Shown here: positions 8,506 through 21,243 of the stretch, in pieces
Layout of the letters: each line of letters starts with the position of its first letter
Position numbering within the stretch: position 1 is the first letter of the stretch
Assembly: GCF_018390635.1 (NCBI RefSeq)
Contig: NZ_JAHBGE010000013.1
Coordinates: 62,001-126,000, forward strand
DNA from: Ancylobacter lacus
GTDB lineage: Bacteria > Pseudomonadota > Alphaproteobacteria > Rhizobiales > Xanthobacteraceae
Direction of reading: 5' to 3'
DNA: 64,000 bases
Notes under the pieces: generated by a model
What the model was told of the DNA's origin: nothing
The model's database searches: none
Seen by the model: only the letters and a program-made list of their open reading frames with translations
Translations under genes and position numbers: made by a program

Positions 8506-8552
8506 ACAGGGGCGGCGAGGCGGGAGGGGGCGGCGGCGCTGGCCGTGGGAGC

Positions 8553-8579
8553 CGATGCCCGGCGCGGGGCCGGGCATCG
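8553..8579. terminator. Bidirectional terminator hairpin
   Basis: CGATGCCCGGC and GCCGGGCATCG form a perfect 11-bp stem around a 5-nt loop. The hairpin lies between the convergent GGDEF-EAL and aminotransferase genes. There is no U-tract. Confidence 0.65.
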
Positions 8580-8623
8580 GGAGGAACGTTGCGCCGTTCA
8601 GATGGCGCGGCGCGGATGGCGGC

Positions 8624-10000
8624 TCAGGCCGGCATGCCGGCCTCGACCCAGGCGGTGATGTCCGCCAGCGTCGCCTCGAAGCGGCGCAGCATCTCGTCGA
8701 TCTGCTCGCGGGTGATGATCATCGGCGGGCAGAAGGCGATGGAGTCGCCGATCGCCCGGATGATCAGCCCGTGCTTGTGGGCCTGGTCGAAGAAGCGCAT
8801 GCCGACCTTGCCGGGGGGGTCGAACCGGGCCTTGGTCTCCTTGTTCGCCACCAGCTCCACCGCGGCGATCAGGCCCATGCCGCGCACCTCGCCGACGAGG
8901 GGATGATCGGCGAAGCGGGCGAGGCCCTCGCGCATATAGGCGCCCATCTCGGCGGCGCGCTCCACCAGTCCGCGCTCCTCGATGATGGCGAGGTTTTCCA
9001 GCGCCACCGCCGTCGCCACCGGATGGGCGCTGGTGGTGAAGCCATGGCCGAAGGTGCCGAGCGCGGCGGACTGGTCCGCCATCACCTGGTAGATCGCGTC
9101 GCTGACCAGCACCGCCGCCAGCGGCTGGTAGGAGGAGGTGATCTGCTTCGAGCACACCAGGATGTCGGGCTGGATGTCGAGGGCGAAGCAGCCGAACATG
9201 GTGCCGAGCCGGCCGAAGCCGTTGATGACCTCGTCGGCGATGACCAGCACGTCATATTTGCGGCAGACCGCCTGCATCGCCGGCCAGTAGCCCTTGGGCG
9301 GGACGATGACGCCGCCGGCGCCCATCACCGGCTCGCCGATGAAGGCGGCCACGGTCTCCGGCCCTTCCGCCAGGATCAGCGCCTCCAGCTCGGCGGCAAG
9401 CCGCTCGGTGAAGGCCTCCTCGGTCTCGCCCGGCAGGCCGTTGCGGTAGAGATGCGGGCGCGAGAGATGGCGGGAGAAGGGCAGCGGCAGGTCGAAGCCC
9501 TTCTGGTTCACCTGAAGGCCGGTGAGGCTGCCGGCGGCGATGGTGATGCCGTGATAGCCGCCCTCGCGGGCGATGAACTTCTTCTTCTCCGGCCGGCCCA
9601 GCGCGTTGTTGTAGTACCAGACGAACTTGATGACGCTGTCGTTCGCCTCGGCGCCGGAATTGGTGAAGAAGACGTGGCTCAGCCCCTCCGGCCCCAGTTC
9701 CGCCAGCTTGGCGGCCAGCAGGGTGGAGGGTTCGTGCGCCTTGTGGGTGTAGGTGGGGTAATAGGGCAGCTTGGCCATCTGCCGCGCCGCCGCCTCCACC
9801 AGCCGCTGCTCGCCGAAGCCGACGCCCACGCTCCACAGCCCGGCCAGCGCCTCGATATATTCGCGGCCCTCGTCGTCATAGACATAGATGCCGGAGCCGC
9901 GGTCGATGACGACCGGCCCCACCTGCTCGTGCCGGCGCATATTGGTCGCGGCGTGGATGTGGTGGGCGATATCGAGGCTATGGAGCGAGTTGGACGGCAT
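8624..10000 (-). CDS. Class III (omega-amino acid type) aminotransferase
   Basis: PLP-dependent fold-type I aminotransferase of 458 residues, expected to transfer an omega-amino group to pyruvate or another keto acid in the cytosol. PLP is predicted on K285 (VCSKQITSSY). Other family features are TNSGAEANDSVIKF (phosphate cup), YHG and the IADEVINGFGRLG Asp that contacts the pyridine nitrogen. The ATG at 10000 is preferred because GGAAGAAAA lies upstream; 24 codons further upstream are open but have no aminotransferase similarity. Polyamine, beta-alanine or similar omega-amines are plausible substrates, but the window does not settle this. Confidence 0.85.
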   Translation of the reverse strand: MPSNSLHSLDIAHHIHAATNMRRHEQVGPVVIDRGSGIYVYDDEGREYIEALAGLWSVGVGFGEQRLVEAAARQMAKLPYYPTYTHKAHEPSTLLAAKLAELGPEGLSHVFFTNSGAEANDSVIKFVWYYNNALGRPEKKKFIAREGGYHGITIAAGSLTGLQVNQKGFDLPLPFSRHLSRPHLYRNGLPGETEEAFTERLAAELEALILAEGPETVAAFIGEPVMGAGGVIVPPKGYWPAMQAVCRKYDVLVIADEVINGFGRLGTMFGCFALDIQPDILVCSKQITSSYQPLAAVLVSDAIYQVMADQSAALGTFGHGFTTSAHPVATAVALENLAIIEERGLVERAAEMGAYMREGLARFADHPLVGEVRGMGLIAAVELVANKETKARFDPPGKVGMRFFDQAHKHGLIIRAIGDSIAFCPPMIITREQIDEMLRRFEATLADITAWVEAGMPA

Positions 10001-10325
10001 CGTCTGGTTTTCTTCCGGGTCAGATGTGGGTGGGCCGGCCGCCGGCGCGCCCGATGCAATCGTGGCGTGCACGGCGTTCGGGATGGGGCCGATTCCCGTG
10101 GTGCGGGCGGCGGACGGAGGCCTTCATGGATCGAACGACGGCCTTGAGGATCGCGCAAGACGCCATCGCTGACCAGCACGCTTTGATTGCGCCGGTTTTT
10201 GCGGGCCCGATCGGGCCGGAAACGGCACCGGAATGCGGCTTCGCCGTACCGGGGACCGCTTGCCGCGCTGGAGCGCCGGCGCCGGCGATGGCCTATGCTG
10301 CGCGGCGAAGCATCGGGGTGGGCGG
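10001..10325. other. Divergent intergenic region, no gene recognised
   Basis: This 325-bp gap separates the aminotransferase from the ABC exporter and should hold both promoters. It contains a 14-bp palindrome, GGCCCGATCGGGCC, at 10204-10217. A short open frame from about 10126 has no recognisable similarity and no good ribosome site, so I do not call a gene. Confidence 0.4.
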
Positions 10326-12104
10326 GTGACGGCGGATTCGATGGGACGGGCTCTCGCCCGAAGGCTGCGGCCCTGGCGGGCCGCCGGGCCGCTGGTTCGC
10401 GCCTTCCGCGACCACGCCGGCCGCACGGGCATCGCCGCGGCGGCGCTGGTGGCGGCGGGCGCGGTGCTGGAAAGCGCCGGGCTGCTGCTCCTGGTGCCGA
10501 TCCTCGGCATCGTCACCGCGCCGGCTGCGGCGGCGCCGGGAGTGGTGGAGAGCGGGTTGCGCGCCGTCGGCCTTCTCACCCCCACCGCCCGGCTGCTGGC
10601 GCTGCTGGCGGTGTTCGCCGGGGTGATGGTGCTGCGCGCCCTCGTCCTGCACGCCCGCGAGATGGCGCTGGCGCGGCTGCAGACCGGCTTCATCGAGGCG
10701 CAGCGCAACCGGGTGATGCGGGCGCTCGCCGCGGCGCCGTGGGAGCGGGTGGCGTCGCTTCGCCACGCCCGGGTCATGAACATCATGAGCGCGGAGATGC
10801 AGCGGGTCGGGGTGAGCGTGCATTTCCTCCTGCAGGCCGGCGTGGCGGCGGCGATGCTGGCGATCCAGATCGCGACCGCGTTCTGGCTGGCGCCGGCGCT
10901 GGCGGCGGCGGCCGGCGCGGCGCTGCTGCTGGGCGGCGGCGTGCTGCTGCTGGCGCAGGGCCGCCCGCATGGCTTTGGCACCGAGACGGTGCAGTTCAGC
11001 CAGAGCCTGATGAGCAGCGCCGGGGCCTTTCTCGGCGGGCTGAAGACGGCGGCGGCGCAGGACGCGCAGGGCTTCTTCGCCGACGAGTTCGCCGGCCTGC
11101 AGGCGCGGCTGCGGGAGAGCCAGCTCCGCTTCGCCGCCCACCGCGCCCGCAGCCGGCTGGTGCTCGGCACCGCGGTCGCCGTGCTGGGCGGGGCGGTGGT
11201 GCTGGTCGGCTTCGCCGTCTTCCGGGTGGAGGCGGCGGTGCTGATCACGCTGGTGCTGGTGTTCGCGCGGATGAGCGGGCCGGCGCTGCTGATCCAGCAG
11301 GCGGTGCAGAGCTTCTTCCACGGCGTCGCCAGCTTCGAGGCGCTGGACGCGCTGGTCGCCGATCTCGCCGCGCCCGCTCCTCCGGCCGCCGGCACCGCCA
11401 CCGCGGCGGCCCCGCCGGATGACGGCGCGGGCGTGCCGGCCGGGGCGATCGCGTTCCGGGGCGTGCGCTTTCTGCATCCCGGGGGCGGCGGGCTGCAGTC
11501 GGTCGATCTGGCGATCGCGCCCGGCACGTTTCTCGGCATCGCCGGTCCGTCCGGCGCGGGCAAGACCACGCTGGTCGACCTGCTGGTGGGGCTGCTGGCG
11601 CCGCAGTCCGGCGAGATCCGCCTCGGCGGCGCGCCGCTGGCGGGGGCGCGGGCGGCGGCATGGCGGCGCGGGGTGGCCTATGTCGCGCAGGACGGCTTCC
11701 TGTTCCACGACACGGTCCGGCGCAACCTGCTGTGGGACGCGGACGGCATCGACGACGCCACCATCGCCGCGGCGCTGGCCACGGTCGGTGCGGACGGACT
11801 GGTCGCCCGGCTTCCGCAGGGGCTGGAGACGGTGATCGGCGAGCGCGGGGCGCTGCTCTCCGGCGGCGAGCGCCAGCGCCTCTCCCTCGCCCGCGCGCTG
11901 CTGCGCCGGCCCGCCCTGCTGGTGCTCGACGAGGCGACCAACGCGCTCGACCGGGCCAGCGAGGCGGCGGTGCTCGGGGCGCTCGCGGTGTGTTCTCCGC
12001 GCCCGACCATCGTGATGATCACCCACCGGGCCGAGAGCCTCGCCTTCTGCGACCGGGTGGTTCACATCGCCGGCGGCGTGGTGCGCGAAGGCTCCGCCGG
12101 CTGA
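10326..12104 (+). CDS. ABC exporter with fused membrane and ATPase domains (RiPP-type)
   Basis: A 592-residue half-transporter. About 320 residues of membrane domain come first, with a segment such as LESAGLLLLVPILGIV. The ATPase domain has Walker A GPSGAGKTTL with K413, signature LSGGERQRLSLARALL, Walker B LLVLDEATNALD and H-loop ITHR. The GTG at 10326 sits behind GGGGTGGG; an open extension to 10233 is Arg-rich and an ATG at 10341 is the alternative. Position beside RiPP genes suggests export of, and self-immunity to, the modified peptide, as for D proteins of lasso clusters. No N-terminal peptidase domain is visible, consistent with leader removal by the separate B2 protease. Its 3' end overlaps the convergent nucleotidyltransferase gene by 43 bp. 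Confidence 0.85.
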   Translation: MTADSMGRALARRLRPWRAAGPLVRAFRDHAGRTGIAAAALVAAGAVLESAGLLLLVPILGIVTAPAAAAPGVVESGLRAVGLLTPTARLLALLAVFAGVMVLRALVLHAREMALARLQTGFIEAQRNRVMRALAAAPWERVASLRHARVMNIMSAEMQRVGVSVHFLLQAGVAAAMLAIQIATAFWLAPALAAAAGAALLLGGGVLLLAQGRPHGFGTETVQFSQSLMSSAGAFLGGLKTAAAQDAQGFFADEFAGLQARLRESQLRFAAHRARSRLVLGTAVAVLGGAVVLVGFAVFRVEAAVLITLVLVFARMSGPALLIQQAVQSFFHGVASFEALDALVADLAAPAPPAAGTATAAAPPDDGAGVPAGAIAFRGVRFLHPGGGGLQSVDLAIAPGTFLGIAGPSGAGKTTLVDLLVGLLAPQSGEIRLGGAPLAGARAAAWRRGVAYVAQDGFLFHDTVRRNLLWDADGIDDATIAAALATVGADGLVARLPQGLETVIGERGALLSGGERQRLSLARALLRRPALLVLDEATNALDRASEAAVLGALAVCSPRPTIVMITHRAESLAFCDRVVHIAGGVVREGSAG

Positions 12105-13435
12105 GCCGCGCTCCCGTGCCGCCCGCTTTGGGCGCTTCGCCGGGTCGGCGGCGGCGGGGCGAAGGGCGTCCGGGTCGCCCGCCGCCACAGGAAGAGCGGC
12201 AGCCGCGTCAGGATATAGAGCCCGTGCAGCGGCCGGGGCAGCGGCCAGGCGATCGGCTCGACATGGCCGATCGAGGCGCGCCAGAGCTGCGAGCCGAGAT
12301 AGCCGTGCTCGCGCGCGACCAGCAGCTTGAGCTCCAGCCGGCCGACCCAGCCGAGATGCGGCTCCTCGCACTGCAGGCCCTGGAGCGACAGCTCCACCAG
12401 CCGCCGCAGCCGGGGCCGGGCGGCGATCTCCGCCGTCAGCTCGTCGGGCAGGTCGAGCCCCCAGAGCCGCCGGCACAGCTCCAGCGCGACGGTCGCGAAG
12501 GCGCCGACGCCCAGCCCCCCGGCATGGCGGTGCAGCGCGCGCAGCGCCTCGGCATCGTGGCCGGCGACCAGCGCCTGCAGGTCCGCCAGCCATTTCAGCC
12601 GGGCCCAGGCATGGCTGGTGCCGTGGACGCAGAGGCAGGCGAACAGGTCCTCGGGCGCGAAGGCGCGGGCCCGGCCGAAGCCGGGCAGATCGACCTCCAC
12701 CGTGGCGGCGTTGGCATCGAGCCCGGCGAGCAGGCGGGGGTGCCGGGCGAGCCGCCAGTGCAGCTCGACCTGAAGATCGCTGTCCGGCGCGCACAGCGCC
12801 ACTTCCTTGCCGAGCAGCAGGGTCTGGCGCCACTGGGCGTCGTCGAGCCGCTCGCGCGGCTGCCACAGGAGGTAGCCGTCCTCCTCCAGCAGCGCGGCGG
12901 CGCGGCGCAGGTGCTCCGGCGGCACGATGACGTCGATGTCCTTGCTGTGCTTGAGGTCCTGCGAGGCGTAGGCCTGCTGGCCGAGCGTGGTGCCCTTGAA
13001 GAACACGGCGGGGATGCCGGCGGCGTCGAAGCGGGCCTGCAGGCGCACCGTCTCGGCGGCGTTGCGCAGGTTCTGCCGGCGGATGTCGAGCGTTTCCATG
13101 GCGAGGCGCCGCTCCGCCTCGCGCGGCGGGGCGACGCCGGCGGCGGCGAGCGCCGCCCGCACCAGCCCGGCCACCCGATGGCGCGCCACCAGCGCCAGCA
13201 CCGCCGGCCAGACGGGCGCCTGCGCGGCCAGGGCGCGGATTTCCGCGTCGCGCGCCTCGCTCGCCGGCCAGCCGCAGCAGGCCACGACGAGGCGGAATTC
13301 GAGGGACGGCGGCGGTGGAGGGCGGTCCAGCGGTCGACTCGCGCAAGGACGGGCCGGACGTGACCCGCGCCGCGAGGCTATCACCTTGCGTCCGGTGGCA
13401 GAAGGGGTGGCCTGCACGCGCCGCGTGCCCGGCAT
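12062..13435 (-). CDS. Nucleotidyltransferase-family protein (RiPP-associated)
   Basis: Up to 457 residues, resembling the nucleotidyltransferase family (PF14907 type) found in many lasso-peptide clusters. The likely nucleotide and metal site is FFKGTTLGQQAY followed by HSKDIDVIVPPEHL, a G-x-D-x-D-like arrangement. The N-terminal 45 or so residues are Arg/Pro-rich and may not be translated: family similarity starts near FRLVVACCGWPASEARD, and ATG at 13435 and GTG at 13384 both have weak ribosome sites. It lies 78 bp after the GNAT gene, probably in the same transcript as the collar genes. In paeninodin-like clusters a homologue accompanies the peptide kinase; a role in further (poly)phosphorylation or nucleotidylation is inference. 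Confidence 0.72.
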   Translation of the reverse strand: MPGTRRVQATPSATGRKVIASRRGSRPARPCASRPLDRPPPPPSLEFRLVVACCGWPASEARDAEIRALAAQAPVWPAVLALVARHRVAGLVRAALAAAGVAPPREAERRLAMETLDIRRQNLRNAAETVRLQARFDAAGIPAVFFKGTTLGQQAYASQDLKHSKDIDVIVPPEHLRRAAALLEEDGYLLWQPRERLDDAQWRQTLLLGKEVALCAPDSDLQVELHWRLARHPRLLAGLDANAATVEVDLPGFGRARAFAPEDLFACLCVHGTSHAWARLKWLADLQALVAGHDAEALRALHRHAGGLGVGAFATVALELCRRLWGLDLPDELTAEIAARPRLRRLVELSLQGLQCEEPHLGWVGRLELKLLVAREHGYLGSQLWRASIGHVEPIAWPLPRPLHGLYILTRLPLFLWRRATRTPFAPPPPTRRSAQSGRHGSAAQPAEPSRTTPPAM

Positions 13436-13513: not shown

Positions 13514-14101
13514 CTAGGACGGCAGGGCCGGCACCGCCGGGGCGGGCGCCGCAGCGGAACGCTCGGCGCCGGGCTCCGGGGAGGCGGCGGAGCCGGGCCG
13601 CCACTCCATCAGCAGATAGGGCCCGTTCTCGCCGATCTGGCGGAAACCCTTGCGGGTGTAGAGGTTGCGGGCCGGATTGAAGCTCTCGACATGGATGCTC
13701 ACCGTCCGGCCGACGCCGGCGGCCTCCGCGCACACCATGTCGAGCAGCCCGCCACCGATGCCGTGACCACGGCTGGCGGGAACGAGGCTGATGTCGACGA
13801 TGCGATGGTCACGGGTGCCGCGGTGGAGATAAAGCCGGCCGATCGGCTCCCCCGCCCGCTCCACGATGAGGAAGAGCGCATCGTGATAGAACGCCGCGTA
13901 GTGCCGCGACTGGAGCCGGAACTGATCGGCGAGGAAGGCGTGCCGGGTCGCGTCCGGCCAGCCGCTGGCGTCCAGCTCCGGCCAGCGGATCGCGGCGTAG
14001 AGGTGATGCAGGAAGGCGGCGTCGGCCGCAACCTCCGGCCGAAGCCGGAGGCCGACCGATGCCAGCCGCGACGGCAGCTCTGGCATCATGGCGGGGACCA
14101 T
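13514..14101 (-). CDS. GNAT-family N-acetyltransferase
   Basis: A 195-residue GNAT protein. The acetyl-CoA motif is RGHGIGGGLL after the beta strand VDISLVPAS. Further family features are HVESFNPARNLYTRKGF and a terminal YLLMEW strand. The last 25 residues are Ala/Pro-rich. It starts 3 nt after the stop of the tail-collar gene upstream, so it is translationally coupled to it. GNATs of this type are, to my recollection, often found beside tandem tail-collar genes. Its acceptor could be a collar protein, the RiPP or an unrelated metabolite; nothing in the sequence decides this. Confidence 0.83.
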   Translation of the reverse strand: MVPAMMPELPSRLASVGLRLRPEVAADAAFLHHLYAAIRWPELDASGWPDATRHAFLADQFRLQSRHYAAFYHDALFLIVERAGEPIGRLYLHRGTRDHRIVDISLVPASRGHGIGGGLLDMVCAEAAGVGRTVSIHVESFNPARNLYTRKGFRQIGENGPYLLMEWRPGSAASPEPGAERSAAAPAPAVPALPS

Positions 14102-14104
14102 CGC

Positions 14105-14653
14105 TCAGTCGTGAGCCGGGTACGCGCCGTCGAGGCAGATGCAGTAGTTCAGCGCGAGATAGGGTTGACGGTTCTCGTGGGTTGTGGAGCTGCCGGCGTT
14201 GCCGATCGCCAGCGGCGACAGCGTTGTATCGACCGACGCGCCTGTGGGAACGAAGTTCTCCGCCACCGAGGTGTTCCCCACGACCTTGACGCGTGAGAGC
14301 CAGGCGACATTGGAGGGCGATGACGCCATGTCGGCGTCGCCGCTCACCCGGGTGTTCAGCAGGTGCTGGTGTGTCGGCAGATGCGGGATGTCCAGCCTCA
14401 CGGTTTCAGTGCCGCTAACGCTACCGAGATTGTGCGACGTCAGACCCGGCCCGCTGCCCGCCCCCAGCGCCGCGCGACCCTGCAGGTTCGGCAGGGTGAA
14501 GGTTGAGTTGGTGACGGGGCCGTAAATGCCGGCGATGACGCTGTACAGGGCCTGATTCTGCATCGTTGGAAGCTGGCTGCCATTGCAGAAGGCCCAGTTC
14601 ACAGGGGCGAAGTTGAAGGCAAAGGGGCGAATCTCGCCGATGAAGGCATCCAT
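14105..14653 (-). CDS. Tail-collar (MdpB-like) protein 1
   Basis: A 182-residue protein with a phage tail collar domain (PF07484 type) over residues 1-60: MDAFIGEIRPFAFNFAPVNW and then FTLPNLQGRAALG. The C-terminus LNYCICLDGAYP is typical of microcystin-dependent-protein homologues. GAGGAG is well placed upstream of the ATG. There is no signal peptide. It is third in a tandem of three paralogues, 12 bp behind its neighbour. No phage structural or packaging genes are nearby, so this is a domesticated family rather than prophage. Confidence 0.88.
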   Translation of the reverse strand: MDAFIGEIRPFAFNFAPVNWAFCNGSQLPTMQNQALYSVIAGIYGPVTNSTFTLPNLQGRAALGAGSGPGLTSHNLGSVSGTETVRLDIPHLPTHQHLLNTRVSGDADMASSPSNVAWLSRVKVVGNTSVAENFVPTGASVDTTLSPLAIGNAGSSTTHENRQPYLALNYCICLDGAYPAHD

Positions 14654-14665
14654 GTCGGAAACTCC

Positions 14666-15211
14666 TCAATTCTGCGTGGGATAGATGCCCCGGAGGCTGA
14701 TGATGTAGGTGAGGGCGAGGGCTGGCATCTGGTTGTTGTGGGCGTTGCCGTTTCCGCGCAGCGCGATGGCTTGAGCGTTCAGGGTTCGCTCGGTTGTCGT
14801 CTTATTGACGACATAGGCCGCGGCGGCGAGGCCTCCCGTCGCGCCGGCAACCTTGGCGTGGATTCGCGACGGTCCCGGGGTCTGGGTGGTCGCGTCCCGG
14901 GTGGTTCCCGTCAGGGTGTGGTCATGGGCGGGAATCTGGGCGATCGTGAGAGTCACGTATTCCGAGCCGCCCTTCTCCCCGAGGGTGTGCCGACTCAGCC
15001 CCGGGCCCTGGCCCTGGCAGACCGGCAGCCGGCCGCGCAGATCGGGCAATGCGAAGGTGTCGCGACCATCGCCTCCCCAGGTTGTTCCAAGAAGCGAATA
15101 CAGGGCCTGGTTTTCGCTTATTCTTATGAGGCGGCCGTCGCAGACGGCCCAGTCAAATGGGGCGAACTTACCCCCGAACAGACGGATTTCGCCGACATAG
15201 CTGTCAACCAT
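14666..15211 (-). CDS. Tail-collar (MdpB-like) protein 2
   Basis: A 181-residue paralogue: MVDSYVGEIRLFGGKFAPFD, FALPDLRGRLPVCQGQGPGL, and terminal LTYIISLRGIYPTQN. Its middle is rich in Thr and Ala and unlike the other two copies, while the N-terminal 65 residues and the last 20 are conserved. It lies 24 bp after collar gene 3 and 12 bp before collar gene 1. It may form a trimeric beta-rich fibre or a mixed complex with its paralogues; this is inferred from the phage family. Confidence 0.88.
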   Translation of the reverse strand: MVDSYVGEIRLFGGKFAPFDWAVCDGRLIRISENQALYSLLGTTWGGDGRDTFALPDLRGRLPVCQGQGPGLSRHTLGEKGGSEYVTLTIAQIPAHDHTLTGTTRDATTQTPGPSRIHAKVAGATGGLAAAAYVVNKTTTERTLNAQAIALRGNGNAHNNQMPALALTYIISLRGIYPTQN

Positions 15212-15235
15212 GGCAGATTTTCCACTTTGAGAAGA

Positions 15236-15787
15236 TCAGGGGCGGGTAGGGTAAAGGCCGGTGAGCGAGATGCAGAAATTCGCTACGGCGAAGGGCTGCA
15301 TGTTGTAGTGGGCTTCTCCGCCGCCCGTCTTGCTGATGGCATCGGGCGCCATGCCGATCAGCGAGCCGGACGCCGCCTCGGCGTAAAGCGTGCGCTGATT
15401 CTTCGGGGTGAGGTCATCCAGCGCGACAGTGGCAATGAAACCACCGGCTGCATTTCCGGTGGTGCCGGCTGTGGTGCTTGCCCGCAGGTCATGGCTATGC
15501 ATGGGCATCTGCGCCGTCGTCAGCGTGACGGTCTCGAGGCCGGCCGCGGTACCGATGGCATAGCTGGAGCCCTGGGAGGCCTGGGGAACGTTGCCGACCG
15601 GCGTGCGGCCCCGCAGATCGGGGAGCGCGAAGGTCTTGGTTCCATCCCCGCCGTAAAAGTTTCGGATCAGGGTGAAAAGCGCTTGGTTCTGCTGGATCGG
15701 CAGGATCGCGCCATCGGCCAGCGCCCAGCCTGTCGGCGCAAAGGCGAAGCTGAACATGCGGATTTCGCCGATAAAGAAATCGGACAC
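15236..15787 (-). CDS. Tail-collar (MdpB-like) protein 3
   Basis: A 183-residue paralogue and first gene of the leftward operon. The GTG at 15787 is chosen because GGGAGGGAA lies 8 bp upstream and the product then starts MSDFFIGEIRMFSFAFAP, aligned with the starts of the other two copies; a longer frame to 15832 has no such support. It has FALPDLRGRTPVG and terminal ANFCISLTGLYPTRP. The operon order is collar 3, collar 2, collar 1, GNAT and possibly the nucleotidyltransferase. Upstream is the divergent region shared with the RiPP precursor. Confidence 0.88.
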   Translation of the reverse strand: MSDFFIGEIRMFSFAFAPTGWALADGAILPIQQNQALFTLIRNFYGGDGTKTFALPDLRGRTPVGNVPQASQGSSYAIGTAAGLETVTLTTAQMPMHSHDLRASTTAGTTGNAAGGFIATVALDDLTPKNQRTLYAEAASGSLIGMAPDAISKTGGGEAHYNMQPFAVANFCISLTGLYPTRP

Positions 15788-16013
15788 GGATATTCCCTCC
15801 CTGGCTGGGACTGCATTGGTGTCTGCACCCAAGAGATGAATTTATCGCAGACACAACTTTTTGTTGCATGCAGCTTCTGCAATTTCAAGTAGCAGATTGT
15901 GTTGCGGCGCCGCATTCCTGGGAGGCCCGGTCTGGTTGAAAGTGCCGTTAGGCTTGCAACCGCCCGGCAAAGGTTGCACCATGGCGACGGTTCAACTTGA
16001 GCAGGGGGCTGCC
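15788..16013. promoter_or_regulatory. Divergent promoter region between collar operon and RiPP precursor
   Basis: About 225 bp separate collar gene 3 from the precursor start. The centre (about 15835-15905) is clearly AT-richer than its surroundings and contains TTGCA/TGCAA and ACACAA/TTGTGT inverted repeats. Promoters for both directions are expected here, but I cannot place -10 and -35 boxes with confidence. Confidence 0.4.
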
Positions 16014-16169
16014 ATGAAAGAGTTCGAGCAGGTCGAGGTTGCTGCGCCGGCGGAGGTCGCTGCGGCGGCAACGCGGAAGGCGTGGCAGGCGCCCACCATG
16101 GATGTCGTCCCCGCGCGCAGCGCGGAAACGGACAATGCAGGCAGCGCTGACAGCGGCTTTTCGTCCTGA
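16014..16169 (+). CDS. RiPP precursor peptide with lasso-type leader
   Basis: A 51-residue peptide starting at ATG 16014 behind GGGGG; an in-frame ATG at 15981 behind AAAGG would add 11 residues. The leader ends KAWQAPTMDVVPARSAETD. Counting from the conserved Thr39 as position -2, Trp24 falls at -17, Pro27 at -14 and Met29 at -12. These are the Tyr, Pro and Leu positions recognised by lasso B1 proteins. The predicted core is then NAGSADSGFSS. It has no Asp or Glu at 7-9, only Asp6, so a normal lasso macrolactam is not possible in this register. If cleavage follows Thr39 instead, the core starts with Asp and has Asp at 7. The C-terminal Ser fits the adjacent HPr-kinase-like enzyme, whose homologues phosphorylate C-terminal Ser. 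Confidence 0.75.
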   Translation: MKEFEQVEVAAPAEVAAAATRKAWQAPTMDVVPARSAETDNAGSADSGFSS

Positions 16170-16414
16170 AGCGACAGGCTGGCCGCGGGCGCGACGCCGC
16201 ATCTGCCGGAAAGCGGCGTTTCCCGGCCGGGCAGAAGTCGTAGAGCACCCCGCGGAGTCTGCGGGCTGGAGCAGTTGGTTGCCGCGGCGCGGAGCCCGTG
16301 GCAGCCGCCAAGCCGTGGGGTGGTGCCAGTTCGCACCCCCGCGGGCGATTTTCTGGGCGACGCGGCGTGTGGAATCGCGTCCTGAGCCGTCGGTTTGGCT
16401 AAGCGGAAGGTGCG
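16170..16414 (+). other. Gap between precursor and cyclase genes
   Basis: This 245-bp stretch lies between the precursor stop and the cyclase start on the same strand. I see no second precursor in any frame. It may hold a secondary promoter or a stem-loop setting the ratio of precursor to enzyme transcripts, but no convincing hairpin was found. Confidence 0.3.
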
Positions 16415-18304
16415 ATGGGTATCTGCGGTAGCGTCGGCATGCCCGTCCGCTCCGTCGTGCGCAGCCTCTCGGCGCTGAAGCTGGGCCGGGCCCGCGGCGA
16501 GGTGCTGCGGGACGAGGAGGACGGCTCCTTCGGCGCCTGCGACGACGGCTCGGTGCAGCTTCGGGACGACGTGGTCGCCCTGTTCGACGGCCGCATCGAC
16601 AATGAGGAGGAGCTGCGGCGGGCGCTGGCCCTCCGGCCCGGCGAAGCGCGGGACGGTGCCGGCCTCCTGCTTGCCGCATGGCGCCGCTGGGGCGCCGACT
16701 GTTTCGAGCGCATCATCGGCGATTACGCCGCCGTGGTCTGGGACCGCCGGGCGCGCCGGCTGCTGATGGCGACCGACCCGGGCGCGCTGCGCACCCTCTT
16801 CTTCTGGCGGCGGGGCGGCTGCCTGCTCTTCGCCACCGAGCAGCGCGGCCTCTGGGTCTATGCCGACGTGACCCGCGAGTTCGACGAGCAGCAGATGGCG
16901 GCCTGGCTCGCCATGCTGCCGCGCGAGCCGATGCGCACCTTCTTTCGCGGCGTGCAGCGCGTGCCGCCGGGCCACCGGGTGGAGTGGAGCGGCGGCGAGG
17001 TGCACCTCGTGCGGTGGTGGCGGCCGGAGGAGGTGCCGGAGCTGCGTTTCGCCCGCGACGCCGACTATGAGGAGGCGCTGCGGGAGGCGCTGGAGCGGGC
17101 CGTCGCCTGCCGCATCCGCGAGGGCGAGAGCATCGGCAGCCAGCTTTCCGGAGGGCTGGACAGTTCCTCGGTCACCGCGCTCGCCGCGCGGCAGCTCGCC
17201 GCGCAGGGGCGCGGCCTCACCGCCTTCACCGCCGCCCCGCGCCTGCCGCCGGGCGAGCAGCCAAACCGCTTCACCGACGAATGGCCGTTCGCCGCCGCGC
17301 TCGCCGCCGCCTACCCCAATATCCATCATGTCCGGGTCGACAATGACGGCACCCCGCTGCTGGATGCGCTGGCGCAGCGCGAGGCCGGCAATGACTGGCC
17401 GGTCCTCAATGCCAGCAACACGGTCTGGATCAACGGCATCGACCGCGCGGCGCGGGAGCGCCGCATCGGGGTGATGCTGACGGCCAGCATGGGCAACTTC
17501 ACCATGAGCTATAATGGCGGCAATGGCGGGGATATGGTGGCGGGTCAGGTGCGGCGCGGCGACCTGCCGGGCGCCCTGCGCACCCTGTCCGAGCTGCGGC
17601 GCGGCACCGGCCGGTCCTGGCTCGGCATCGCCGGCATAGCGGCGGATGCGGTGCTGCCGGTGAGGCTGCGCCGCCGGCTGCGGGCGCTGGCGGGCAAGCC
17701 CGAGCGCGGGCTCTACGACTATTCCGCCGTGCGGCCGGACTTCCTCGGCCGCGCCGGCGTCGCCGAGCGGGCCGAGCATGTCGCCTGCAACCTGCGCAAT
17801 GTGGCGGGCTATGACAGCCGCGCCCTGCGCCTCGCCGGGCTCGACCGTACCGACCATCGCGGCCAGTGGGCCATGGGCACCCGCCGGCTGTTCGGCATCG
17901 AGCTGCGCGATCCCACCCTGGACCGTCGGCTGGTGGAGCTGTGCCTGTCGATTCCCGACTCGCAATATCTCAAGGACGGGGTGCCGCGCTCGCTCATCCG
18001 CCGGGCGATGCGGGGCATCGTGCCGGACACCGTGCTGCGGGAGGTCCGCCGGGGGCGGCAGGCGGCGGACTGGCGGCGCGGCTTCGACGCCGCGATTCCG
18101 GCGCTGCGCGAGGAAGTGGCCCGGCTGCGCAACAGCCCCTTCGCCCGCGAATGCCTGGATATCGAGCGGATGGAGCGGTTGATCGACGCCTGGCCGGGGC
18201 CGGAGAGCACGGCGGGCGGTGACGAACTGGCCTATCTCTGCGCCTTCAGCCGGGGCCTGACCGCCGGTCGCTTCATCCGCCGCGTCGAGGGCGGCAACGG
18301 CTAG
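16415..18304 (+). CDS. Asparagine-synthetase-like cyclase (lasso C-type)
   Basis: A 629-residue two-domain protein. The N-terminal 200 residues form a class II glutamine-amidotransferase-like domain with VVALFDGRIDNEEELRRAL and IIGDYAAVVWDRRARRLL. It starts MGICGSVG, so the only Cys near the N-terminus is residue 4, not the catalytic Cys2 of true amidotransferases. The synthetase domain carries the ATP pyrophosphatase loop SGGLDSSS at 245-252. By analogy with lasso cyclases it would adenylate a side-chain carboxylate of the core peptide for attack by an amine. GGAAGG precedes the ATG. It converges on the sulfotransferase gene. Confidence 0.85.
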   Translation: MGICGSVGMPVRSVVRSLSALKLGRARGEVLRDEEDGSFGACDDGSVQLRDDVVALFDGRIDNEEELRRALALRPGEARDGAGLLLAAWRRWGADCFERIIGDYAAVVWDRRARRLLMATDPGALRTLFFWRRGGCLLFATEQRGLWVYADVTREFDEQQMAAWLAMLPREPMRTFFRGVQRVPPGHRVEWSGGEVHLVRWWRPEEVPELRFARDADYEEALREALERAVACRIREGESIGSQLSGGLDSSSVTALAARQLAAQGRGLTAFTAAPRLPPGEQPNRFTDEWPFAAALAAAYPNIHHVRVDNDGTPLLDALAQREAGNDWPVLNASNTVWINGIDRAARERRIGVMLTASMGNFTMSYNGGNGGDMVAGQVRRGDLPGALRTLSELRRGTGRSWLGIAGIAADAVLPVRLRRRLRALAGKPERGLYDYSAVRPDFLGRAGVAERAEHVACNLRNVAGYDSRALRLAGLDRTDHRGQWAMGTRRLFGIELRDPTLDRRLVELCLSIPDSQYLKDGVPRSLIRRAMRGIVPDTVLREVRRGRQAADWRRGFDAAIPALREEVARLRNSPFARECLDIERMERLIDAWPGPESTAGGDELAYLCAFSRGLTAGRFIRRVEGGNG

Positions 18305-18328
18305 GCGAATCACCAAAGGGTCGCGGCG

Positions 18329-18344
18329 CCCTGCCGCGGCAGGG
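18329..18344. terminator. Candidate bidirectional terminator
   Basis: CCCTGC-CGCG-GCAGGG forms a compact stem between the convergent cyclase and sulfotransferase genes. There is no U-tract. Confidence 0.4.
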
Positions 18345-18400
18345 AACACACCCGGGCACAACCTTAGGGCGAATCGTCTTCCGGCGCGCGCGAAACCCTC

Positions 18401-19237
18401 TCAGCGATAGCCGAAGCGGGCCATGGTCGCGGCGTGGTCGCGGGCGATGCTTTCCGCAAGCGCGGGGGCCAGCGCCTCGCGCCAGCCGCCGGCCCGCCCC
18501 TTGCGGAAGAAGGCTTTGCCGGAGACGGTGAGCGCGCCGGGGAAACCGTCTTCCTGCTCCCGCGCGGCCAGCCGCTCGAACCGCGTCGCCGCGATGGCGC
18601 CGGCAATGTCCGCCACTGTAGCCTCCAGTTCCAGGAAGCGGCACACCTGGGCGAAGGTCTCCTCCGGCCGGGCCGTCAGATCCTCGTAGCGCACGCAGAG
18701 CCGCCGCAGCCCCGGCGCGTCGAGCCAGCTTTCCACATGGCGGCTCCAGCTCGACAGCCATTGCTCGACATTGGCGTTCAGCCCCGCGGCCGAGCGGCCG
18801 ATCATGTGGGCCTCGTCGCCGAGGTCCGCCACCACGGCCTCCACCGTCTGGCCGAAGTGATGCGCGGCGGAGAGGGCGACGTCGCGCGGGTCGCGCACGA
18901 CATAGACCACGCGGTCGATCGTCTCCGCCGGAATGGCCGGCTCGGCCGCGCCGGGCGGCGCCAGATTGGCGTCGTGCACCTTGTAGAGGCCGGGCCGGGC
19001 GGCGGCGATGCGGCGGCTGACATAAGGGCGCAGCCGCGCCACCTCGGCCGGGGTGAGATCAGAGCATTCCAGCCCGGCGAACGCATCCTGCAGCCCGCGC
19101 GCGGCCAGCGTGGGAATGGCCTCCATGTCCCCATGCAGATCCGGGGTGCGGCCGCCGAGCGTCAGGCTGGCGAGGAAGGCGCGCATCCAGGTGTTGCCGG
19201 ATTTGGGGTAGGAGGCGATGAGGACGAGCCCGGTCAT
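18401..19237 (-). CDS. PAPS-dependent sulfotransferase (RiPP tailoring candidate)
   Basis: A 278-residue cytosolic sulfotransferase. The 5'-phosphosulfate loop is ASYPKSGNTWMRAFL near the N-terminus. The 3'-phosphate site is YVVRDPRDVALSAAHH, and the C-terminal FFRKGRAGGWREAL matches the family's RKGxxGxW signature. The ATG at 19237 overlaps the kinase stop as ATGA, so the two are translationally coupled; an 11-codon Arg/Gly extension upstream is discounted. Sulfation of the RiPP core, which offers Ser but no Tyr, or of a carrier glycan are both possible. Coupling to the kinase and RRE genes favours the peptide. Confidence 0.85.
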   Translation of the reverse strand: MTGLVLIASYPKSGNTWMRAFLASLTLGGRTPDLHGDMEAIPTLAARGLQDAFAGLECSDLTPAEVARLRPYVSRRIAAARPGLYKVHDANLAPPGAAEPAIPAETIDRVVYVVRDPRDVALSAAHHFGQTVEAVVADLGDEAHMIGRSAAGLNANVEQWLSSWSRHVESWLDAPGLRRLCVRYEDLTARPEETFAQVCRFLELEATVADIAGAIAATRFERLAAREQEDGFPGALTVSGKAFFRKGRAGGWREALAPALAESIARDHAATMARFGYR

Positions 19238-20142
19238 CCCCGCGCCACGGCCTCGACCGCGTCCAGCCATTCGTCCATCCCGCCGAGGTCGAAGCGCCGG
19301 GTCAGCCGGTAGACCGGCGTGGCGGCGGCGATGGCGGACTGGGCGAGGAAGAGCGAAGCCGCGCGGCCGAGCTGCTGCGCGGTCTCGCGCCGGAACACTT
19401 CGCGGTCCAGCGCCGGCACGATCTCGATCGGGCTGCTCAGCCGCACGATGCCCGGCGGAACCCCGGGCCCCGCCCGCCCGAGCAGGAAGACCGCGGCGAG
19501 GGGAAGCGGCGTGGTCGCGAAGTCCTCCGGCCGGCGGTAGTGATACTTGTTCTGCCCGGGCCGGTTGCGCTCGAGGCCGGACTCAGCGATCCCCGCCGAG
19601 CGCAGGCTGTCCTGCCAGAGCTTGAGCCGGGGAAAGGCCGGCAGCGCCATCGGCGTGGCACGGGTATCCACCACGCAGACGTCGTCGGCCAGCAGCAGGT
19701 GGCCGCGCCGGGCGAGATGCAGCGCGGTGGTGGATTTCCCCGCCCCGGAGACGCCGCAGAAGGCGAGCGCCCGTCCCTCGATCGCGACGCAGGAGGCGTG
19801 CAGCGGCAGCAGCCCGCGCAGATGGCAGAGATAGCCGAGCACCGAGCCCAGCAGGAACAGCCGGATCTCGACCGGGTCGGCCTCGGGGTGCGGCGCCACC
19901 ACCACGCGGTCCGGCCCGTCGACATGGAAGGTCGCGACCGCCGGCAGGTCGAGGCGGCAGGCACCGCGCGGGTCGACCTGGAGATAGGGCGAATCCTGAA
20001 CGGCGCCCTCCAGCCGGTCCGGCACGGCGCCGCGACGCACGTGGATATCGGGGGCGCGGTCGTCGCCGACCCACGGGGCAAGCTCGGGCAGCGGCAGCTC
20101 CGAGCGAACCCGCCACCCGCACAGATAGCTGTCGCTCGTCAT
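19234..20142 (-). CDS. HPr-kinase-like RiPP kinase
   Basis: A 302-residue protein of the HprK-related kinase family. The P-loop is CGVSGAGKSTTALHL with K136, followed by LLLADDVCVVD, the Asp pair typical of HPr kinases. The N-terminal 120 residues are a variable beta-rich region. The ATG at 20142 overlaps the stop of the B1 gene as ATGA. Homologues in paeninodin-type lasso clusters phosphorylate the side chain of the precursor's C-terminal Ser, and the precursor here ends in GFSS. The substrate assignment is inference from that match. Confidence 0.85.
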   Translation of the reverse strand: MTSDSYLCGWRVRSELPLPELAPWVGDDRAPDIHVRRGAVPDRLEGAVQDSPYLQVDPRGACRLDLPAVATFHVDGPDRVVVAPHPEADPVEIRLFLLGSVLGYLCHLRGLLPLHASCVAIEGRALAFCGVSGAGKSTTALHLARRGHLLLADDVCVVDTRATPMALPAFPRLKLWQDSLRSAGIAESGLERNRPGQNKYHYRRPEDFATTPLPLAAVFLLGRAGPGVPPGIVRLSSPIEIVPALDREVFRRETAQQLGRAASLFLAQSAIAAATPVYRLTRRFDLGGMDEWLDAVEAVARG

Positions 20143-20432
20143 GAATCCGCCGCCGCCCGCAGCTCGATCATGTCCTGCCGGAGGAGACGGTCGAGGAAGC
20201 CGAGGACGTCGGCTTCGAGCACCCCGGCCTCGGCGTCGTAGGCGGCCCGCAGCTCCTCGCACAGGGCGGCAACCACCTTGGGCTGCTCGATCCGCCGCCA
20301 GATGTCCGATCCCACCGGGTTGAGGCCGATATAGACGCCGTGCTCCATGTCCAGCAGCACCTGCTCCTCGCCGACCGCGGCGCCGAGATAGCCCTTCTTG
20401 CGTACAACTTCAGATAGAATATCTACACTCAT
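20139..20432 (-). CDS. PqqD-like RRE (lasso B1-type leader-binding protein)
   Basis: A 97-residue PqqD-superfamily protein: EQVLLDMEHGVYIGLNPVGS followed by helices through VLGFLDRLLRQDMIEL. Proteins of this type bind the leader of the precursor and present it to the B2 protease and cyclase. The ATG at 20432 (MSVDILSEV) is preferred, with GGA 9 bp upstream; ATG 20441 is possible. It is the first gene of a B1-kinase-sulfotransferase operon in which both junctions are ATGA overlaps. Confidence 0.85.
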   Translation of the reverse strand: MSVDILSEVVRKKGYLGAAVGEEQVLLDMEHGVYIGLNPVGSDIWRRIEQPKVVAALCEELRAAYDAEAGVLEADVLGFLDRLLRQDMIELRAAADS

Positions 20433-20515
20433 AGCTTGCATTCCGAGTGTTTGATTGTAGGATGAGACACTACCGTGGATGTATCCATCTGCGGAAGCGT
20501 CTACTGGAGGCGGTG
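20433..20515. promoter_or_regulatory. Short divergent promoter between B1 and DUF6916-B2 operons
   Basis: Only 83 bp separate the two divergent start codons, and this DNA is AT-richer than average. The palindromic GATAGAATATC sits just inside B1 (about 20413-20423). The tight spacing implies joint regulation of the two halves of the RiPP enzyme set. Confidence 0.4.
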
Positions 20516-20803
20516 GTGACGGAACTGGCACATTTCGCAACGCGGGTCGGGCAAGCCTTTTCGGTGGAGGTCGGGCTGCCGGAGCCGCTGGAGATCGTTC
20601 TGTTCGCGGCGAACCCGATGCCCGCGAGGAAGCCTGTCGGCCGCAGCGACCCGTTCGAGCTGAGATTTCGCGGCCGGGGGCCCTATTGTCTGAAACAGTG
20701 GATCCACCGGCTCCGCAACGACGCGCTGGGCGAGATGGACATCTTCCTCGTCCCGATCGCTCAGGAGGACGACCACTTCATCTATCAGGCGGTGTTCAGT
20801 TGA
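20516..20803 (+). CDS. DUF6916-like small protein
   Basis: A 95-residue protein resembling DUF6916, a small family that I recall as a common neighbour of tail-collar genes. Visible features are FATRVGQAFSVEVGLPEPLE, PFELRFRGRGPYCLKQWIHR and LGEMDIFLVPIAQEDDHFIY. The GTG at 20516 is chosen because GGAGG lies 5 bp upstream and the length then fits the family; the frame is open to 20447. Its stop overlaps the B2 start in the tetranucleotide TTGA. That ties a collar-associated protein to the RiPP protease. Molecular function is unknown. Confidence 0.7.
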   Translation: MTELAHFATRVGQAFSVEVGLPEPLEIVLFAANPMPARKPVGRSDPFELRFRGRGPYCLKQWIHRLRNDALGEMDIFLVPIAQEDDHFIYQAVFS

Positions 20804-21243
20804 TACGCGGCGTCTCCCTGCCGGCGCGCTGGCTCCGGCTCGATTCGGGCGGGCGCGCCCTGCTGCTGGAGGCCCTGTTCGCCCTGCTGGCGGCGCGGCT
20901 GGCGGTTCTCCTGCTGCCGTTCCGCCGGGTGGCGCGGTTGGCGTCGCGCCGGCCGAACGGGCCGGTGCGGGAGGCTTCGGCGGAGGAGATCGCCCGTTTG
21001 CGCTGGGCCATCCGCGCCGTGGCGCGGCGCGTGCCGTTCCGGGCGCTGTGCCTTGAGCAGGGGCTCGCCGCGCAGGCCATGCTGCGGCGTCGCGGCATCG
21101 CGGCCACGCTGCATTACGGGGTCGGCAAGCCGCAGGGCGAGGCTTTCCTCGCCCATGCCTGGGTGAGGGCCGGCACCCAGGACGTCATCGGCACCGAGGG
21201 GTGCGACCGCTTCGCCGTGCTCGCCGTGTTTCCCGAGCCGTAG
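20800..21243 (+). CDS. Lasso B2-type transglutaminase-like protease
   Basis: A 147-residue protein of the B2 family. The catalytic Cys is in [16 protein letters not shown], the His in AHAWVR and the Asp in QDVIG, the usual Cys-His-Asp order. A hydrophobic helix lies at about residues 20-42. It removes the leader of the precursor together with B1. The start is the rare TTG at 20800, overlapping the DUF6916 stop (TTGA), so expression depends on the upstream gene. The next ATG in frame lies inside the domain. Confidence 0.85.

Follow-up and report, generated by a model that had tools for sequence, protein, structure and literature searches.

A lasso-type peptide cluster in Ancylobacter lacus and the probable register of its core

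Can a precursor whose only core acid seems to lie at position 6 be the substrate of a lasso pathway? The question is raised by a locus for a ribosomally synthesized and post-translationally modified peptide (RiPP) in Ancylobacter lacus (genome size 4.6 Mb), within a stretch of 64,000 nucleotides (contig NZ_JAHBGE010000013.1, positions 62,001 to 126,000) that is referred to throughout as the window. A preliminary description of window positions 16014 to 21243 reported lasso-type genes around a 51-codon precursor frame, and a core that could not form a standard lasso ring. Related precursors set Ala37 as the residue at -2 and Asp46 as an invariant acid, so the supposedly impossible core would start two residues earlier, and its acid would fall at position 8, as in an ordinary lasso ring. 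The anomaly is thus most likely an error of register, which removes the claimed exception to the lasso ring rule. We consider it highly probable that the locus represents an alphaproteobacterial subfamily of lasso-type RiPP clusters, with Ala at -2, a macrolactam between Thr39 and Asp46, a phosphorylated C-terminal Ser and export by an ABC transporter.

Ring register of the precursors

The cyclase of this module is found in 8 of 30 Ancylobacter genomes including that of the window (7/29 others; E <= 1e-150), and the seven sister proteins are 60-65% identical to it. The precursor gene (16014..16169, + strand) encodes 51 residues and lies directly 5' of the cyclase gene in all seven sister loci. 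An alternative in-frame ATG at 15981 would make 62 codons; the lengths of relatives favor 16014. No Pfam or NCBIfam model matched the precursor at E <= 0.1. The frame is present as first described, and because W24, P27, A37 and S51 are invariant across 12 aligned precursors it is very probably translated.

The genus set comprises ten precursors from nine genomes, eight of them at modules, one at a module remnant (locus L096 in genome G002) and one an orphan (L102 in G028). These align without gaps from the leader Trp to the acid, with invariant Trp, Pro and Ala columns. In the motif W24-x-x-P27-x-M29 (16083..16100, +), W and P are fixed in 10/10 and the Met position is I, L or M in all; in the proposed register the three residues stand at -15, -12 and -10. 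Ala37-Glu38 (16122..16127, +) would occupy -2 and -1, with Ala in all ten genus precursors and cleavage after Glu38. The simplest reading of the alignment therefore gives a predicted core of 13 residues, TDNAGSADSGFSS (16128..16166, +), with an eight-residue ring from Thr1 (Thr39) to Asp8 (Asp46) and the tail SGFSS. Asp46 (16149..16151, +), the putative isopeptide acceptor, sits nine residues after the invariant Ala, as does the acid of every genus precursor, and is D or E in 10/10. The final residue is likewise Ser in all ten, and the rest of the core is very variable (mean pairwise identity 25%, or 15% once positions 8 and 13 are dropped), with no other core position holding an acid in more than 3 of the 10. 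These data point to a subfamily whose cores vary freely except for the ring acid and the C-terminal Ser. When acids are placed at random within each core, the probability that a given column is all-acid is 3.5e-8, and at most 4.6e-7 for any of the 13 columns, values that overstate independence because the ten precursors are related to one another (up to 62% identity between two cores). Among the eight module precursors alone, which were found by position and not by profile, the acid is present in 8/8, and a column at least that good arose in 5 of 200000 shuffles.

An Asp or Glu thus falls within core positions 7-9, at 8 in all ten, contingent on the cut after Glu38. The Thr that usually, if not universally, occupies -2 in lasso leaders is replaced by Ala in all ten. 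We do not treat this as excluding, because exceptions have been published: PMC10368454 describes Ile at -2 as shown and Ala as predicted. Where the -2 Thr is missing, we suggest that the register be set by aligning relatives and locating both the invariant acid and the invariant -2 residue.

The register first proposed places the cut after Asp40, giving the 11-residue core NAGSADSGFSS and a six-residue macrolactam or another modification at Asp6. Its arithmetic is right: relative to Asn41, the Trp, Pro, Met and Thr stand at -17, -14, -12 and -2, a spacing that fits canonical leaders in this one sequence, and Asn as the first core residue has a precedent in metanodin (PMC12670498). Across the ten precursors, however, the -2 column would read T, A, V, A, L, V, T, D, F, S, and every precursor would have a six-membered ring. 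With Thr in only 2/10 at that position, the 11-residue register is unsupported, and we judge it very unlikely. A new modification by the cyclase homolog is likewise not needed, as an ordinary eight-residue ring suffices. The preliminary description had also proposed checking whether the acid and the C-terminal Ser are invariant across precursor homologs; both are, in 10/10, and with the cut set by Ala the acid falls at 8, not 6.

A wider collection of 36 precursors was mostly chosen by eye from motif lists, by leader motif, closeness to a cyclase and usually a C-terminal Ser. A fixed rule assigns 33 of these, placing the acid at 8 in 26 and at 7-9 in 32. The C-terminal Ser is present in 35/36, a count biased by its being usually among the picking criteria. 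At L077 and L078, and in two of three precursors at L072, Thr replaces the invariant Ala at equal distance from Trp; in 14 further precursors Thr lies one residue further on, and nine of these have the acid at 8. Lasso cores commonly begin with Gly, Ala or Ser. Related leaders with Thr for Ala then start the core with one of these residues at L039, L040, L042, L046 and L112, and with V, L, N, Q, T or E at others.

These leaders bear on two further cuts, after Thr39 (a ring of seven, Asp1-Asp7) or after Ala37 (a ring of nine, Glu1-Asp9). The acid by itself does not fix the cut, and known lasso rings span 7-9 residues (PMC8498205); moreover, the invariant Ala37 could be read as -1, since the residue after it is E, Q or R in 10/10. 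However, the -2 residue matters for leader removal (PMC10368454), and the -2 column would be E/Q/R for the ring of seven and a variable S/G/D/A for the ring of nine. Several of the related Thr-for-Ala leaders also give cores starting with Gly, Ala or Ser. Both cuts are therefore unlikely. The earlier hunch that the peptide might be cyclized in another register was sound, although the specific proposal of Asp1-Asp7 with a cut after Thr39 is unsupported, the relatives pointing instead to Thr1-Asp8.

A second, canonical precursor elsewhere in the genome had been envisaged as the true substrate. A profile of 12 precursors, run on 12 genomes, found only the known one in the window's own genome (E 3.3e-16; 150 of 165 initial candidates scored). 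Among the other genomes it gave one strong second match, the orphan L102 in G028 (3.0e-10), and weaker ones in G023 (1.4e-3, at another lasso-type locus, L112) and G012 (4.3e-3). A W/Y/F..P motif scan of the window returned six other short frames, none adjoining the cyclase and none credible by eye.

Machinery, proposed tailoring and threading

Between 10.2 and 21.2 kb the gene order is ABC transporter (+), NTP_transf_5 nucleotidyltransferase (-), GNAT acetyltransferase (-), three tail-collar genes (-), precursor (+), cyclase (+), sulfotransferase (-), HPr-kinase-like gene (-), PqqD-like B1 (-), DUF6916 (+) and B2 (+). The kinase, sulfotransferase, nucleotidyltransferase, three collar genes, GNAT and DUF6916 genes were absent from the preliminary description. 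It rightly placed the precursor, cyclase, B1 and B2 genes between 16014 and 21243; the exporter that it listed with them lies outside, about 3.9 kb upstream. Its assignment to lasso-type machinery is borne out by library matches and by the precursor-cyclase arrangement, which recurs in seven other genomes, more than chance would give.

The asparagine-synthetase-like lasso cyclase (16415..18304, +) keeps its SGGLDS adenylation loop in all eight aligned proteins, and no further cyclase was found in the window's own genome at E <= 0.001. The PqqD-type leader-binding protein B1 (20139..20498, -, start uncertain) matches PqqD at 1.6e-19 and, in the PDB, a lasso PqqD chaperone (9x90, 1.1e-10) and TbiB1 (5v1u, 2.2e-08). 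The leader peptidase B2 (Transglut_core3; 20800..21243, +) passes NCBIfam NF033537 (99.3 bits versus a cut-off of 33). A precursor thus lies beside an asparagine-synthetase-like cyclase in the window and in all seven sister loci, and both the PqqD-like B1 and the transglutaminase-like B2 are present, with B2 away from the module in the seven sisters. The HPr-kinase-like peptide kinase K (19234..20142, -; PF07475, 1.2e-08) has a P-loop and a following Asp-Asp pair in the window and in 7/7 sisters, and with the C-terminal Ser of all ten precursors it matches what characterizes phosphorylated lasso clusters. The sulfotransferase (18401..19249, -; PF00685, 6e-25) carries YPKSGNTW and RDPRD motifs in the window and the seven sister loci. 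The nucleotidyltransferase (12062..13435, -; PF14907, 6e-45) is a candidate for adding a sugar to the phosphate, and the ABC transporter (10233..12104, +; library match) is the candidate exporter D.

Kinases of this kind phosphorylate the C-terminal Ser of linear lasso precursors in Firmicutes and Proteobacteria, with several phosphates added in Proteobacteria, and a pseudomycoidin nucleotidyltransferase can add hexoses to the phosphate (both described in PMC8498205); in another pathway, B1 aids both kinase and peptidase (PMC10368454). From the gene content, the invariant Ala and acid, the C-terminal Ser and the catalytic motifs, we infer where the precursor is cut, which ring bond forms, the order of steps, the sites of modification and the route of export, as follows. 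B1 would bind the leader at Trp(-15), Pro(-12) and Met(-10), and the kinase would phosphorylate the C-terminal Ser51 of the linear precursor. B2 would then cut after Glu38, reading Ala37 as -2 where most lasso leaders have Thr, and the cyclase would activate Asp46 and join it to the new N-terminus at Thr39, giving an eight-residue macrolactam with the five-residue tail SGFSS. The sulfotransferase would probably sulfate a tail hydroxyl, perhaps that of the penultimate Ser, the nucleotidyltransferase may glycosylate the phosphate, and the ABC transporter would export the product. The locus thus points to a likely phosphorylated, perhaps sulfated, lasso-type product.

Sulfation of the penultimate residue is a hint drawn from co-occurrence. 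The penultimate residue is Ser or Thr in 11/11 precursors accompanied by a close sulfotransferase (52% or more identity to that of the window), and is Ile in the G002 remnant, where the sulfotransferase is broken. The link is weakened by six precursors near distant sulfotransferases (34-43%) that lack a penultimate Ser/Thr (L046, the second of L055, L068, L077, L078 and L112), and by L044, which has a penultimate Thr and no sulfotransferase match within 14 kb; these exceptions are why it may be taken as a hint only. At L045 and L100 a sulfotransferase is present and no precursor was identified.

The proposed ring bond is compatible with a product in which the Asp8 macrolactam forms and is never threaded, so that lasso enzymes would yield a branched cyclic peptide. 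The tail beyond the ring has only five residues in 9/10 cores, which keeps such a small macrolactam in play, and 6/10 tails have no aromatic or basic residue able to plug the ring. Against this, the enzymes are those of lasso pathways, the plug could be a phosphate, sulfate or sugar carried by the last two residues, and some relatives (L068, L077) have eight-residue tails. We place the unthreaded form somewhat short of an even chance.

Several observations weigh against the lasso-type cluster with a Thr39-Asp46 ring proposed above, beyond the kinship of the sequences already mentioned. A tail of five residues is, to our knowledge, at or below the shortest lasso tails, and a bulky plug is missing from most tails, which makes threading of the product doubtful. 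The distance from Trp to the core (-15) is two residues shorter than the canonical -17, and the first core residue is varied, being the same T, A, V, A, L, V, T, D, F, S column listed for the Asp40 cut; Gly is a common first residue of lasso peptides. The acid column was itself part of the profile that retrieved the L096 and L102 precursors. In the wider collection, L044 has its acid at 10, six precursors have it at 7 or 9 instead of 8, and three could not be assigned by the rule. The cyclase and B1 score under the curated NCBIfam lasso cut-offs (NF033535, 5.7e-69, 233 bits versus 525; NF033536, 6.5e-15, 55 bits versus 80), though the lasso models are their best NCBIfam matches. Finally, B2-family matches of any strength (E <= 0.001) occur in 13/30 genomes, so that only the strong ones track the module.

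Distribution in the genus and dispersed genes

The order GNAT, three collar genes, precursor, cyclase, sulfotransferase, kinase and B1 is kept in 7/7 sisters, and DUF6916 was found at the module in 4/7 (tblastn). The closest relative of the window's B2 is, in all seven sisters, an orphan gene away from the module (L089-L095; 55-59% identical), with no other lasso enzyme genes within the 15 kb looked at; G008 and G026 carry additional, weaker B2-family genes. Strong B2 matches (E <= 1e-18) are confined to nine of the 30 genomes, exactly the eight with the cyclase plus G002, a co-occurrence that favors the proposed cluster. The best relative of the nucleotidyltransferase also lies off-module in 7/7 sisters (39-43% identical), and beside it in 3/7 is an ABC gene 41-44% identical to the window's; no ABC transporter gene was found at the module of the seven. 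The window thus unites what its sisters keep in two or three places, which speaks for B2 and the ABC transporter being functional components and suggests that elsewhere in the genus the peptidase and exporter are encoded in trans.

G002 carries a decayed module (L096, about 7300-12100) in which the cyclase is lost and the sulfotransferase frame broken, while B1, the kinase and an open precursor remain. The remnant precursor has its acid at 8 and the penultimate Ile noted above. G002 also encodes, some 70 kb from the remnant, a different cyclase that shares about 40% identity with the window's. The orphan precursor of G028 (L102, about 7650-7800) has the core SGGSDSPDGAETS; no cyclase, B1, B2 or kinase match was found within 15 kb of it, and G028 carries the module elsewhere. 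Five alphaproteobacterial loci (L039, L041, L053, L065 and L072) have two or three differing precursors around one lasso-type cyclase.

Known systems and the tail-collar module

The locus resembles those of phosphorylated lasso peptides (paeninodin, the S. yanoikuyae cluster and pseudomycoidin), which combine a C-terminal-Ser precursor, cyclase, B1/B2 and an HPr-kinase homolog, and some Firmicutes clusters of that kind also have a nucleotidyltransferase or sulfotransferase gene (as described in PMC8498205). It appears to be of this kind, with an unusual tail and company: unlike those systems it has Ala(-2), Trp(-15) spacing, a very short-tailed 8+5 core, a penultimate Ser/Thr and an adjoining module of phage-tail-like collar genes, and in its sister genomes the peptidase and exporter genes are dispersed. 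These features, together with its tailoring genes, are what is unusual here. The Bradymonas BsfA pathway, as reported in PMC10368454, likewise has a kinase with B1/B2, a non-Thr -2 residue and a ring acid at 8; it differs in Ile(-2), canonical -17 spacing and phosphorylation at core Ser3. Metanodin is also a proteobacterial lasso peptide with an unusual first residue, but its Asn1 follows Thr(-2) and its tail has ten residues (PMC12670498). A plasmid locus of Azospirillum oryzae (NZ_CP054615.1), found via its cyclase, has GNAT, three tail fiber genes, a small precursor, cyclase, B2, a kinase-like gene, PqqD, nucleotidyltransferase, ABC and DUF6916. It differs from the window in having no sulfotransferase match, a 2-oxoglutarate oxygenase after the cyclase, and a precursor, outside the count of 36, whose acid is at 9 with Ala(-2), as counted by eye.

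In the window, the collar module comprises a GNAT acetyltransferase (13514..14101, -; PF13508, 3.6e-09; present at 7/7 sister loci), tail-collar proteins 1 (14105..14653, -; PF07484, 3.5e-20), 2 (14666..15211, -; PF07484, 1.3e-25) and 3 (15236..15832, -, probable start near 15787; PF07484, 1.3e-25), and the DUF6916 protein (20516..20803, +; PF21880, 1.1e-21). Within the genus, 36/40 strong Collar matches (E <= 1e-11; four further matches at about 3e-4 were left out) have lasso-type genes no more than about 10 kb away, if the G002 remnant, which has no cyclase, is included. The window's locus is one of several alphaproteobacterial lasso-type loci with three collar genes, GNAT and often DUF6916; many others with a cyclase match have no collar gene (e.g. 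L034-L037, L039-L041, L043, L053 and L054). We considered the collar triad as a lasso-specific feature, an idea weakened by plasmid loci from a set of 49 matching records: in all six that were examined, lasso genes are missing and the triad adjoins a gene of 2.7-12.5 kb that encodes a large protein. These loci include Deinococcus and Paenibacillus, DUF6916 was found in 4/6, and Ig-like or choice-of-anchor domains are annotated in the large protein at 3/6. The triad therefore belongs to a general module with at least two kinds of partner, among them the lasso-type peptide.

No publication joining the phage-tail-like collar module with lasso-type peptides was found in the literature consulted. 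One speculative and rather improbable account is that the products are plug-less 8+5 macrolactams in which enzymatically added groups stand in for bulky side chains. The kinase (and nucleotidyltransferase) would modify the C-terminal Ser, and the sulfotransferase the penultimate Ser/Thr, with the resulting phosphosugar and sulfate forming a stopper or the active part; the peptide would then act with the tail-collar/GNAT/DUF6916 module, replacing the large surface-like protein found there in other bacteria. Across the loci compared, the widespread collar/GNAT/DUF6916 module (window 13514-15832 and 20516-20803; L113, L115-L120) lies either beside lasso-type genes or beside a large protein gene.

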